From Gammaproteobacteria bacterium (lineage in GTDB: Bacteria; Pseudomonadota; Gammaproteobacteria; Pseudomonadales; Azotimanducaceae), in NCBI GenBank assembly GCA_028821405.1, contig JAPPGK010000075.1, forward strand, positions 1 through 53,992: DNA of 53,992 bases, read 5' to 3'. The notes under the pieces are model-generated. The model did no database searches, was not told where the DNA came from, and was given only the letters and a program-made list of their open reading frames with translations. Made by a program: the position numbers and the translations under genes. Positions 20,536 through 53,817 of the stretch are shown in pieces; within the stretch, counting starts at the first letter, position 1; each line of letters opens with the position of its first letter.

Positions 20536-21957
20536 GTGCGAGTGTTTTCCATACTGGCCCTGGTGCTTGCAAGCGCCGCACATGGTGCCGATTCGGTGCC
20601 GCCGAACGTCGTTGTCATTCTCGTTGACGATCTCGGCTATTGCGACAGCGAACTCTACGGGTGCGACACGGTCCCCACGCCGAACATCAAGCGCATCGCG
20701 GAGGAGGGGGTATTGTTCACCGATGGCTACGTCTCGAGCCCCGTTTGCTCGCCTTCCCGGGCAGCGCTTTTGACCGGTCGCTACCAGCAGCGTTTCGGGT
20801 TCGAATTCCTCCCCACGACCGGGCCCGAGAGCGACGACGGTCTGCCCGAGGACGAGGTCACCCTGGCCGATGCCCTGAAGAGAGAAGGCTACGTTACGGG
20901 CATGGTGGGCAAGTGGCATCTGGGTTCGCACGAGAAATTCAATCCGGTCAACCGGGGATTCGACGAGTTCTTCGGCATGAACCCCGGGGGCACCGACTAT
21001 CTCGACCCGACGCGAGAAGACGCCCGGATCATGCGTCGTGTGGGAGAACTGTTGATCGAGCCGGGACACCCGTCAAAGGCGCCGTGGAAAGGCCGAGGCG
21101 ACGGGTCTTTGATGCGGGGAACGACTCCGGTCGAGGAAAACGACTACCTCACCGACGCTTTCACCCGCGAAGCGGTGGCGTTCATCAGAAACCACAAGAA
21201 ACGGCCGTTTTTTCTCTATCTGCCGTATACCGCCGTTCACGGTCCCCTTCAGGTTACGCAGAACTACTACGACCGTTTCCCACACATTGAAGTCGAGGGC
21301 AGTCGCATCTACGCGGCCATGACATCGGCTCTCGACGACGGCGTCGGTGCTGTCTTGGATGCGTTAGAGGAGGCTGGCCTCGAAGAAAACACGCTGGTGG
21401 TCTTTCTCAGCGACAACGGCGCCGGCGTGTCCGAGTACTGCAGCAACGAACCGCTTCGGCTCGGCAAGCAGACGATGTTCGAAGGGGGTATCCGTGTGCC
21501 TTTCACCATGAAGTGGCCAGCACGGATTCCCCAAGGTATTACCTACGAACATCCGGTCAGCGCGCTGGATATCTTCCCGACCGCCATCGCTGCCGCTGGC
21601 GGGGAATTGCCGGCGGACCGAGACATCGATGGCGTTGACCTGGTCCCGTATCTCGATGGTTCGAACAGCGCAAGACCCCATGACAGGCTCTTCTGGCGGG
21701 CTGGCCCGATCTGGGCGGCTAGAGTAGGCGATTGGAAACTCACCTATGCCGCGGACCGATACTGGCTTTACGATCTGTCCGAAGACATCGGCGAAGTGAA
21801 CAACCTCGCCGACAAACGTCGAGACATCGTCAAAACGATCAAGGCAAGCTACGCGCAGTGGAACAGCGGAAACATCGAACCGCTTTGGCCCACCTTCGGC
21901 GCCAAGACCATGCCGCAATACTCGGTGGACGGTGTTCAGGTGCATTGGACGTTCTAG
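20536..21957 (+). CDS. Secreted type I arylsulfatase-family protein
   Basis: Second S1 sulfatase of the island, 473 residues. A signal peptide (residues 1-18, ending near ASAAHGA) directs export. The formylglycine signature is CSPSRAALLTG. The NVVVILVDDLGY metal-binding start, GKWHLGSHEKF, and VVFLSDNGAG complete the pattern. Start GTG 20536 has AGGGAG about 7 nt upstream. The sequence resembles arylsulfatase or N-acetylgalactosamine-sulfatase-like members; the substrate is not resolved. The TAG stop (21955-21957) lies in the first CTAG of the 147-bp hairpin element. If CTAG is the duplicated target, the protein end was preserved by the insertion. Confidence 0.9.
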   Translation: MRVFSILALVLASAAHGADSVPPNVVVILVDDLGYCDSELYGCDTVPTPNIKRIAEEGVLFTDGYVSSPVCSPSRAALLTGRYQQRFGFEFLPTTGPESDDGLPEDEVTLADALKREGYVTGMVGKWHLGSHEKFNPVNRGFDEFFGMNPGGTDYLDPTREDARIMRRVGELLIEPGHPSKAPWKGRGDGSLMRGTTPVEENDYLTDAFTREAVAFIRNHKKRPFFLYLPYTAVHGPLQVTQNYYDRFPHIEVEGSRIYAAMTSALDDGVGAVLDALEEAGLEENTLVVFLSDNGAGVSEYCSNEPLRLGKQTMFEGGIRVPFTMKWPARIPQGITYEHPVSALDIFPTAIAAAGGELPADRDIDGVDLVPYLDGSNSARPHDRLFWRAGPIWAARVGDWKLTYAADRYWLYDLSEDIGEVNNLADKRRDIVKTIKASYAQWNSGNIEPLWPTFGAKTMPQYSVDGVQVHWTF

Positions 21958-22100
21958 GGAAGGTCTGAACAAGACCTTCCCTAGCGCGGCACAGGGATGT
22001 GCCGCCAAATTCGATGTCGTAAGCCATTGAATTTGCGAGCGAAACTATTTGTTTCGCTAATGTTCAAGTCCAGGGACGGACTTGAACAGAGGTTTCCTAG
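21954..22100 (+). repeat. 147-bp five-hairpin element, copy A
   Basis: This block is almost wholly made of stem-loops: 21954-21984 (13-bp perfect stem), 21986-22005 (8 bp), 22007-22034 (11 bp, imperfect), 22038-22058 (8 bp) and 22061-22088 (11 bp). It starts and ends with CTAG. Its two termini read inward as GGAAGGTCTGAAC and GGAAACCTCTGTTC, imperfect inverted repeats. The copy at 53671-53817 is the reverse complement with two differences in 147 bases. From memory, the termini resemble those of IS5-family elements, which favour CTAG-like targets. That suggests a non-autonomous (MITE) derivative, but no transposase is present. It begins on the stop codon of the sulfatase gene. Confidence 0.9.
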
Positions 22101-22152
22101 TCGGGCGGGAACACTCCACTTGTCGTCTCGGTGGAATACCGAAGGTGTTCCT

Positions 22153-22421
22153 CTAGTGTCACGTCAACCCTCAAACGTCGCGTCAGTGGTCGCCGGAGTG
22201 TTCCTCGCAAGGCGCGGTCGCGAAGTCGTACCGGGGGTACGGCGAGCCGGCCGCAACGCCGCGAGGGGCGCTCCGGCCACCACCCGAAGGGCGCGGCCGC
22301 AAGCGCCTCCCGCATCGTTGGCGCATCTCGACGTAGCCCCGCTATGCCTTCGATGCGCCGCCTCGCGGGGCGACGCTTGCGGCCACGCTGACGCGACGTT
22401 TGAGGGTTGACGGGACACTAG
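22153..22421. mobile_element. 269-bp MITE with 34-bp terminal inverted repeats
   Basis: The left end (22153-22186) and right end (22388-22421) are inverted repeats, 33 of 34 positions matching. Each end carries CTAG at its outer edge, probably the target duplication. The interior is GC-rich and has no credible gene; short frames across it are compositional. A partial second copy forms window positions 1-55. Read outward, the left terminus contains GAGGGTTGACGTG, a Shine-Dalgarno-like GAGG followed by GTG; the right terminus has GGG in place of GTG. Transposase is absent, so movement would need a partner elsewhere. IS481-family elements are known to use a CTAG-centred target, but family membership is only a guess. 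Together with copy A of the hairpin element it fills most of the gene-free stretch 21958-22524; the remaining bases there show nothing further. Confidence 0.85.
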
Positions 22422-42850: not shown

Positions 42851-44482
42851 TCACTTGCCGGAGTCCGTGAGTTGACGGGCGAGCGTCTCCCCAGCGAGCG
42901 TGCGACGGTACCGCTGGTTCCTGCTGGTGGGTTTGTCCGGCATGGTCATTTCGATGATGCCGGCTTTGAGTGCGGGCTTCAGATAGGTCTCCCTGAAGCT
43001 GCGTCGGTCCCGCAGGTTCAGTTCGGCCTGCAAACCGGCACGACTCATTTCGCTTTGCAGCGTTCGGACTAGCCGCTCGACGCATCGAGCTACTTGAGGG
43101 GCATCTTGGGGGGTGTCATGGCGATCTTGGGGGGTGTCATGGGGGGTGTGGATTGAGTTCTCGTTGTTTTTCAGTTGCTTATCTTGTTCACTAAACTGTT
43201 CGCGGACGGTCTCGTCCGTCAGCGGAAACGCCGTGTGCACAGGTAGCCGGACGCGAAACCAGGTGCGATCCTCGTCGCTCTCGAAGCTCGGCGCGGGAGA
43301 GCCATTGTCGCGCATGGCGCGGAGTATTTTCGGCACACCGGTGGAACGGCCCTCCGCGAGGTCAAGCTCTTTCAGAAACTCGCCGATCCGCCGGTTGCGG
43401 TAGCGACGGCTCACCGCCTCGCCCCGCTGTAGATCCGCCATACGGATCGAGCGATCCGCACCCGGATAGCTGAGGACCAGCAACTCCTCCGGCGTGACCC
43501 GCACCTCCACCGGTTCGCGTTCCTCGTAGGAGCGGTGGTAGATGGCGTTGCCGAGGGCCTCCTCGATCGCAGCCACAGGGAAGTTACAGAACCGCTCGGC
43601 TTCGGGCTTGTGGGGGTGCTTGACGACCGCCTCCTTCACGTAGTTGCGCTCGATGTAGCTCACCGCATCGCGGAGGATTGCCGCCAGTGGCCCGCGAAAC
43701 TCCTTCTCCTCGAAATAGTCGCCGCCGGGGCCGTCGGGAAACCAGACCACATCGATCTGCGTCGCGGGGAAGAACTCGTGCGGACGGTCGTTGAAGAACA
43801 GGAGGCCAACGTTCTTGGGGAACAGGGCTTCCGGGGGACCGCCGACGATGTTCAAGCGTCGTCCCAGAACGTCCATCGACAGCCCGGCCACTTCCTGCAG
43901 AAGATCGCTGCCGACATCCTGCAGGTGTTGCTGAATCAGCCGGAAGGAGAGATCGTCCAACGAGGCGTTTCGGTGGTAGCGGTCGTCGAACGGCACCGTC
44001 GCGGCCAATCCGAGCAACTCGCGCTCGTCCTCCCCACGCGCCCGTACCGTGCTGCTGTGCCTGCGGATGAAGTAGGCCCACTCGCGGCTACTCGCAGAGA
44101 GTCTGACTTTCGTTCGGTACGGCCGCGTTTCGCCGCCGGGTGCATAAAGCACGAGGATCGTCCTGCCGTCGACATCGTGGACCGCCGTCAGTGGATGGTA
44201 GGGCGGCTGAATCGCCGAGTTGCCCAGGTTGAGCAACGCCTTCTGTATGCCGTCGATGGCAGCCGGGTCCAACCCCTTCGGCGGCAACACCGGTCGACCG
44301 TCGCGTTCCTCCACGCCCAGCACGACGTAGCCGCCGCCGAGATTGTGGAAATCGTTGGCAAACGCTCCGAGCGTCGCCAAGACGCTTTGCGGGTTCCACC
44401 CGGCCTTGTACTCGATGCGCTCGCCCTCGATGGTACGCCGATGCAACAGGCTGTCGATGTTGATGGGAAGGGCGAGTGTCAT
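42851..44482 (-). CDS. Schlafen AlbA_2 domain / GHKL-type ATP-binding regulator
   Basis: A 543-residue protein. The N-terminal AlbA_2 domain (residues about 10-140) has RIEYKAGWNPQSVLATLGAF and NLGGGYVVLGVEERDG. The middle (about 310-410) has an HATPase_c_4-type region, FPVAAIEEALGNAIYHRSY and LSYPGADRSI. A linker (about 435-465) contains HDTPQD-type repeats, and the C-terminal part looks like a winged-helix domain. Proteins of this type are annotated as transcriptional regulators or RecG-C-terminal-like; some occur near defence genes. I see no partner here. ATG 44482 lacks a good Shine-Dalgarno. Confidence 0.82.
   Translation of the reverse strand: MTLALPINIDSLLHRRTIEGERIEYKAGWNPQSVLATLGAFANDFHNLGGGYVVLGVEERDGRPVLPPKGLDPAAIDGIQKALLNLGNSAIQPPYHPLTAVHDVDGRTILVLYAPGGETRPYRTKVRLSASSREWAYFIRRHSSTVRARGEDERELLGLAATVPFDDRYHRNASLDDLSFRLIQQHLQDVGSDLLQEVAGLSMDVLGRRLNIVGGPPEALFPKNVGLLFFNDRPHEFFPATQIDVVWFPDGPGGDYFEEKEFRGPLAAILRDAVSYIERNYVKEAVVKHPHKPEAERFCNFPVAAIEEALGNAIYHRSYEEREPVEVRVTPEELLVLSYPGADRSIRMADLQRGEAVSRRYRNRRIGEFLKELDLAEGRSTGVPKILRAMRDNGSPAPSFESDEDRTWFRVRLPVHTAFPLTDETVREQFSEQDKQLKNNENSIHTPHDTPQDRHDTPQDAPQVARCVERLVRTLQSEMSRAGLQAELNLRDRRSFRETYLKPALKAGIIEMTMPDKPTSRNQRYRRTLAGETLARQLTDSGK
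43101..43142 (-). repeat. Two tandem 21-bp units inside the AlbA_2 gene
   Basis: Two 21-bp units (43101-43121, 43122-43142) differ at two positions and are followed by a partial third unit. In the minus-strand frame they encode a repeated HDTPQDx segment in the linker between the ATP-binding and C-terminal domains. Length variation by slippage would keep the frame (21 = 7 codons). Confidence 0.8.
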
Positions 44483-53670: not shown

Positions 53671-53817
53671 CTAGGAAACCTCTGTTCAAGTCCGTCCCTG
53701 GACTTGAACAGTAGCGAAACAAATAGTTTCGCTCGCAAATTCAATGGCTTACGCCATCGAATTTGGCGGCACATCCCTGTGCCGCGCTAGGGAAGGTCTT
53801 GTTCAGACCTTCCCTAG
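53671..53817 (-). repeat. 147-bp five-hairpin element, copy B
   Basis: Reverse complement of copy A (21954-22100) with two differences in 147 bases, both compatible with the hairpins. One change (G for T in the third stem) improves pairing, so this copy is closer to a perfect fold. It is flanked by CTAG on both sides. On the minus strand it starts at the TAG stop of the truncated gene on its right and ends 65 bp before the PP2C GTG start. Each copy has the same end next to the upstream gene. Confidence 0.9.

Follow-up and report, generated by a model that had tools for sequence, protein, structure and literature searches.

A Widespread IS5-Type MITE Made of Five Conserved Hairpins, Two of Them with CsrA-Type Loops: A Candidate Mobile CsrA-Binding RNA

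Introduction

The window analysed here is the whole 53,992-nucleotide stretch of contig JAPPGK010000075.1, which is contig 13 of a 4.77-Mb assembly (122 contigs) from a gammaproteobacterium of the Azotimanducaceae. It holds two almost identical copies of a 147-bp multicopy element devoid of transposase gene and built of five consecutive hairpins. This locus raises the question of what kind of element this is, how it moves and what its hairpins are for. A preliminary description, made from the letters of the window, had reported both copies and proposed a MITE with IS5-like ends, the stacked hairpins of which could function as an RNA or as a single-stranded DNA structure. Its observation is correct and understated, and it overlooked two features, namely that hairpins 2 and 5 share a conserved A(N)GGA loop and that the terminal CTAG is a duplicated target site.

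The Element and Its Two Copies

The two copies lie at the positions first reported, and folding gives the same five hairpins, the third spanning 22006-22035. The features of the locus are as follows.

20536..21957, + strand: upstream sulfatase gene (PF00884), with its stop codon inside the left CTAG of copy A
21954..22100, + strand: five-hairpin element, copy A, with both target duplications
21954..21957, + strand: left-hand target-site duplication (CTAG) of copy A, which provides the upstream sulfatase ORF with its TAG stop codon
21954..21984, + strand: hairpin 1 of copy A; the left terminal repeat GGAAGGTCTG is contained in the 5' arm and its inverted copy in the 3' arm
21986..22005, + strand: hairpin 2 of copy A, with a CsrA-type loop
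21993..21998, + strand: loop of hairpin 2 of copy A, AGGGAT (ANGGAN)
22006..22035, + strand: hairpin 3 of copy A
22038..22058, + strand: hairpin 4 of copy A, shortened in the host species, with loss of the YCRCRY loop common in the family
22061..22088, + strand: hairpin 5 of copy A, with a CsrA-type loop; its outer 3' side continues into the right terminal repeat
22072..22077, + strand: loop of hairpin 5 of copy A, AGGGAC (ANGGAN)
22097..22100, + strand: right CTAG target-site duplication of copy A
53671..53817, - strand: copy B of the five-hairpin element, with the letters common to the other host copies
53773..53778, - strand: loop of hairpin 2 of copy B (ANGGAN)
53694..53699, - strand: loop of hairpin 5 of copy B (ANGGAN)

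Each copy starts and ends with CTAG, and a search of the window for further copies found none beyond A and B. Copy A folds with an energy of -79.3 kcal/mol versus a mean of -38.5 for shuffled sequences (z -10.8; 0 of 200 shuffles as good), and both of its strands fold stably. The two copies differ at two positions, at which copy A is the deviant (T at 22017, A at 22060), the 22 other displayed 147-bp copies, B included, carrying the letters of B. As read on the sequence, each of these changes removes a pair, one inside hairpin 3 and the other at the foot of hairpin 5. There is no compensation within this pair of copies; compensation comes only from the wider family.

Two other features of the window should be mentioned. 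An imperfect fold-back repeat some 270 bp long (22153-22421, 72.6% self-complementary) lies near copy A, at a distance of about 50 bp. Parts of it recur at positions 1-61 of the window and, in the same genus, at loci L035 and L042, and it seems to represent a second family of repeats, unrelated to the element. Furthermore, positions 42851-44482 (- strand) encode a protein with Schlafen/AlbA_2, HATPase_c_4 and Fic-like C-terminal domains.

Ends, Target Sites and Relationship with IS5 Insertion Sequences

Among 29 loci of the host genome, a script located both ends of 26 copies, and the flanking 4-mers agree in 25 of them (22 CTAG/CTAG, 3 TTAG/TTAG), the remaining one being mixed. CTAG lies outside the element proper, since three copies are flanked by TTAG on each side instead. 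In the same way, the flanking 4-mers of 30 elements taken from 30 genomes are identical in 17 cases, of which 14 are YTAR, the others being ATAA, TTCA and TAGA. In 10,000 re-pairing shuffles, this agreement had a mean of 5.3 and a maximum of 12.

The 122 contigs of the host assembly have no PF01609 or PF13340 match, i.e., no IS5 transposase was found in them. Draft assemblies often lose IS copies, so the missing transposase lowers only the claim of present mobility. Twelve other genomes, from the same genus or family or bearing the element, were also searched, and 9 of them have PF01609 matches; 4 of the 19 PF01609 loci sit just inside ends resembling those of the element. In the element-bearing genomes, the ends beside PF01609 genes read GGAAnnnCTGA next to TTAG or TTAA. 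For example, IS loci with one end seen each read TTAG followed by GGAAGGTCTGATTAAG, TTAA followed by GGAACCTCTGATTTATTCA and TTAA followed by GGAAGCTCTGATTGA, and the only locus for which both ends were found has a TTAG duplication (GGAATCTCTGAACAATT). The ORFs of two IS loci were scanned with NF033581, the NCBIfam IS5 model (cut-off 140 bits). The intact ORF of L160 reaches 329 bits; that of L168 is broken, one piece passing at 143 bits and the second failing at 62. The IS5 link proposed in the preliminary description holds, as two of the scanned ORFs pass this cut-off and IS5-family ISs with like ends lie beside YTAR sites. A further type of element, from a Sedimenticola MAG, has the ends GGGCACCTC, which match the end of another IS, and a copy of this type lies within the transposase ORF listed for that IS. 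The transposase ORF of the IS5-type element of L162 (1021-2060, PF01609) encloses a five-hairpin element that shares its end type.

Folding of IS5 ends (both ends of L168 and one each of L156, L158, L160 and L162) does not give five hairpins, and the hairpins are therefore the MITE's own body. Given its ends, its 4-bp, mostly YTAR duplications and the presence of IS5-family ISs with like ends beside YTAR sites in related or element-bearing genomes, the 147-bp repeat is almost certainly an IS5-type MITE, which supports the interpretation given in the preliminary description. Like IS5-family MITEs, it is short, multicopy and devoid of gene, with IS5-like terminal repeats and a 4-bp, mostly YTAR duplication. 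It differs from them by its body, made of five packed and covarying hairpins found across many genera with several end types.

REP and BIME elements mobilized by RAYT are likewise dispersed intergenic hairpins, whereas the ends and the target duplication of the present element are of the IS5 type. The host genome has no PF01797 match (Y1/RAYT transposase), and a REP/RAYT origin was rejected. Carriage by other elements was also looked for: the hairpin 2 pattern had no match in viral contigs, and the one element tried against plasmids and phages (L182) had no match there.

A long hairpin with a GGAAGTCCTGA end lies beside an IS-like locus (L174, 824-944) and scores 27.4 bits with the covariance model R2; it is possibly a decayed element.

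Copies in the Host Genome and Their Gene Context

The search for more copies that the preliminary description had proposed yields 38 matches in the host genome and further copies in relatives; 29 of the host matches are full-length, with 95-100% identity. The genes around the host copies were called in-house. Four of 30 loci gave no entry and 5 of the 26 others, called inside a gene, were set aside. Among the 21 clear intergenic copies, 13 lie between convergent genes and 12 have the stop codon of a neighbour inside the duplicated 4 bp. A pooled set of 91 sites, after removal of 16 that were called intragenic, 4 distant from any gene and 1 lacking a neighbour, gave 12 sense versus 19 antisense insertions in same-direction contexts. 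The + strand is not favoured, and a sense bias toward neighbouring genes was rejected.

Such a location recalls repeats of the ERIC/REP kind, found at gene 3' ends, which would act as transcript stabilisers or two-way terminators and whose loop sequences would have no special meaning. Both host counts and the stable folding of the two strands speak for this explanation. However, the convergent excess and the stop-codon placement fit the CTAG target, from which the latter follows. Furthermore, copy A has a single terminator-like site, on the minus strand and not above shuffles, and stability alone would leave unexplained the fixed GGA of two loops in an element whose stems turn over (see below). 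We therefore consider this explanation improbable.

Copy A starts at the stop codon of the sulfatase gene, so that it would begin the 3' untranslated region if transcription runs through. No sigma-70-like promoter, the one promoter type searched, was found around copy A (21700-22400). This result and the lack of sense-strand preference speak against the reading as a CsrA-binding RNA proposed below.

Distribution and Subfamilies

A search of 38 genomes (the host and relatives) gave matches in 5 of them at E <= 0.001: the host itself, three congeneric genomes (11, 24 and 32 matches) and a genome from a different genus, whose only match is weak. The copies from relatives keep the layout with different stem letters, and some have lost one or two hairpins. 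In public genomes, the hairpin 2 pattern occurs in at least 102 stretches and, among the 80 matches listed, nearly all titles are those of gammaproteobacterial MAGs. The few non-gammaproteobacterial matches that could be checked looked like chance. Pattern matches were taken as chance at L054, L062 and L063, where no five hairpins appeared among the output listed, and at L086 and L092, which had no covariance-model match.

The covariance model R1, built from nine sequences that all have GGA loops, was run on 369 genomes sampled from the class; 70 of them, including the host, contain the family, as do 54 of the 272 genera. Among 398 genomes drawn from the phylum, 46 carry the element (42 of them outside the class). 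Opposite-strand model matches (e.g., L175 + and L104 -, 34-43 bits) are mirror hairpins and were not used as elements. None of the Rfam families matched at its cut-off in the element loci scanned.

Subfamilies with different ends (CAGGCTGTTGAAAAAC, GGGCACCTC, a G053 type and GAGCCTGTCGCAG) share the same layout. Some elements are of mixed type: those of L079 (357-508) and L152 join a left half of the GGAATCTCTGA type to a right end of the CATCCTG type, which suggests recombination between subfamilies.

The single-contig 4.1-Mb genome G766, from the order of the host, has one R1 match (E 6.5e-13); the Rfam RsmW model found nothing there.

Conservation of the Five-Hairpin Structure

The preliminary description had proposed compensatory changes as a check of the structure, and the wider family provides many of them. 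They were counted in a sequence-only alignment, A6, of 32 elements, 30 from as many genomes and two from the genus of the host. This alignment is partly faulty at three pairs, the two outer ones of hairpin 3 and one in hairpin 5. A first alignment of 25 elements (A1) had misaligned hairpin 1 between groups, and its consensus structure was not used. The stems have 7-12 bp. In A6, 91.7% of the cells pair, and double changes affect 35 of 55 pairs. There are 205 double-changed cells, versus 59.3 in shuffles (0 of 500 reaching this number) and at most 68 when partners were slid, the slid control keeping relatedness, which shuffles do not. The five-hairpin structure is almost certainly under selection.

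These data bear on the idea of an ordinary MITE whose hairpins and loops would be conserved merely through recent descent from a few master copies. The near identity of the host copies is what such descent would give. However, between the 30 genomes the stems have diverged widely, with compensating changes, whereas the loops are kept, and the count given above contradicts this idea, as does the maintenance of the layout by subfamilies with different ends. It appears very improbable.

GGA Loops and CsrA

GGA loops were counted strictly, only triplets located wholly inside the loop being retained, in 74 elements from 70 genomes (34 from model-search loci and 40 fetched separately). GGA is present in 68 of the 71 resolved loops of hairpin 2 and in 70 of the 74 of hairpin 5, versus 0 of 74, 1 of 72 and 1 of 74 in hairpins 1, 3 and 4, respectively. 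In A6, the hairpin 2 loop has invariant A, G, G and A at positions 1, 3, 4 and 5 (32/32), positions 2 and 6 carrying all four letters, and the hairpin 5 loop has G, G and A in 31, 31 and 32 of the 32 elements. Elements that lack one GGA still score 76-126 bits with R1, far above the weakest accepted matches (about 30 bits), so the score threshold did not create this loop pattern.

This pattern is that of a known RNA-binding protein. In excerpts from PMC7652899, the site of the CsrA family (RsmE) is described as an ANGGAN hexaloop in a hairpin, with variable N, and the SELEX consensus of CsrA is RUACARGGAUGU. In the window copies, the sequence of hairpin 2 is ACAGGGAUGU. According to the same excerpts (PMC7652899), most SELEX ligands have stems of four bp or fewer, whereas those of the element are longer, as given above. 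The host encodes a CsrA (65-aa ORF at C72:66227-66382) with L4 and R44, two residues named as important for RNA binding in parts of PMC7652899 and PMC4950607.

CsrA was detected in 63 of the 70 element-bearing genomes versus 250 of the 299 others, and its presence was rejected as a correlate of the element since it does not discriminate. Seven element-bearing genomes, all drafts, two of which are 95% and 98% complete, showed no CsrA. Their 28 copies have GGA in 13 of 18 resolved hairpin 2 loops and 17 of 24 resolved hairpin 5 loops. This share is lower than in the 74 better-scoring elements, without being lost, in a comparison that sets lower-scoring, older-looking copies from drafts against the best copies elsewhere. 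Hairpins 2 and 5 probably bind CsrA/RsmA; a sponge or cis-regulatory effect in cells would be a further step, which we regard as doubtful.

The hairpins could serve instead a structured IS5-type MITE at the DNA level, the end hairpins or single-stranded or cruciform DNA being read by the transposase or a host factor and the GGA loops being a mark for transposition rather than a CsrA site. Several observations agree with this explanation. The ends and target duplications are those of a transposon, and an element that multiplies is selected most directly for whatever aids its movement. Moreover, in the end types examined, hairpins 1 and 5 involve the terminal repeats, there is no sense bias toward genes, and the hairpin 4 loop is conserved too, as YCRCRY across genera (L175-L204 and others), which CsrA does not explain. 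On the other hand, IS5-type transposases act on double-stranded ends, and the folded ends of five IS5 loci (L168, L156, L158, L160 and L162) do without five hairpins. Furthermore, the GGA loops keep the letter pattern of the known RNA-binding protein, variable N included. All this makes a purely DNA-level role rather unlikely.

Comparison with RsmW and Other Known Systems

The known RNA whose design is closest is RsmW (Rfam RF02809), made of four consecutive hairpins, the outer two of which have GGA in their loop; the four line up with hairpins 2-5 of the element. RsmW is devoid of hairpin 1 and has a third GGA, at its second hairpin, that is absent from the element. As described in parts of PMC4950607, RsmW is an RsmA-binding sRNA of P. 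aeruginosa with 3 of its 7 GGA in outer loops. Besides binding RsmA in vitro, it restores phenotypes of an rsmY/rsmZ mutant and increases the glycogen of E. coli, and it was suggested to derive from the 3' untranslated region of PA4570. The 3' untranslated position that copy A would occupy is thus the setting proposed for RsmW, although it also follows from the CTAG target.

The full length of the Rfam RsmW model could be aligned with elements from two genomes (45.6 and 41.7 bits, cut-off 52); such alignments were obtained for 1 of 8 sources in one scan and 2 of 20 in another. In 20 genomes, its best matches (90.7 and 75.7 bits) belong to two genomes of the order of the host, and we take them to be Pseudomonas RsmW. 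The next ones are elements (45.6, 42.7 and 39.2 bits), followed by a mixed tail at 28-33 bits. Thirteen of these 20 genomes bear the element, and the model found it in 3 of them, always below the cut-off. The host copies had no match to this model at E <= 0.01. Conversely, the element models score the two RsmW loci at 20.8 and 10.1 bits (one model) and 20.4 and 15.6 bits (another), close to other matches of these models (17.9 and 27.4 bits). RsmW was therefore rejected as a proven relative, the scores being too weak and L174 and L284 scoring similarly. Reading of the two RsmW loci revealed no terminal repeats or target duplication. The model scores weakly suggest a likeness of design, and common descent is not claimed.

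The other sponges, CsrB, CsrC and RsmX/Y/Z/V (Rfam clan CL00106), also display on one strand hairpins with GGA in the loop. Nevertheless, they have many sites whereas the element has two, is mobile and dispersed, and has no promoter seen at copy A. None of the Rfam sponge families exceeded its cut-off on the elements, RsmV reaching 18.3 bits of 100. The TwoAYGGAY motif of Rfam consists of two hairpins with a GGA-containing loop, while the two GGA hairpins of the element are separated by two others; no match to this motif was found in three scans of elements.

MITEs that give rise to small RNAs are already described, namely the Coxiella QMITEs (parts of PMC5896051 and PMC10969869). The role and targets of these RNAs are unknown according to a section of the review PMC10969869, and the main texts of both papers do not mention CsrA. 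In the same way, the text portion available for the stem-loop family survey PMC2267715 contains neither CsrA nor RsmA, and none of the titles and abstracts of open-licence papers listed describes a MITE or mobile repeat of the CsrA/RsmA type.

A Proposed Mobile CsrA-Binding RNA

The best reading of these data is that of a MITE spreading a CsrA-binding RNA, toward which we lean by a little. This combination is a new one of two known kinds. The element, which is non-autonomous, would be moved in trans by IS5-family transposases recognising its ends. It would insert mostly at YTAR sites, which in the host are CTAG and often the stop codon of a neighbour. Its body would be a structured RNA, conserved and read on the + strand, with five hairpins, of which hairpins 2 and 5 present A(N)GGA loops, the CsrA/RsmA binding motif. 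When transcription of a neighbour runs into a copy, the resulting RNA would be expected to bind CsrA through both loops. It would then either titrate CsrA, as RsmW does RsmA, or place the host transcript under the control of CsrA. The mobility signature, the matching IS5 ends, the covarying structure, the loop conservation and the host CsrA gene with L4 and R44 are the observations from which we infer transcription, CsrA binding and a sponge or cis effect.

More speculatively, an ancient IS5-mobilised family may spread ready-made CsrA/RsmA-binding RNAs through Proteobacteria. Insertions at stop codons would generate 3'-end CsrA decoys, and chromosomal sponges such as RsmW would be domesticated descendants of such elements. 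The element itself may gain by loosening the control exerted by CsrA on transposase or host expression. This broader scenario is unlikely, although conceivable.

Should the loops bind CsrA, transposition would rewire or buffer, at dozens of sites at once, a highly connected post-transcriptional regulator of Proteobacteria. The origins of Rsm/Csr sponge RNAs are, to our knowledge, unclear, and transposition would then be a testable source of new ones. Even without CsrA, these elements make up a large unannotated family of RNA or DNA structures, with strong covariation, that is present in about one-fifth of the sampled genomes of the class (70/369).
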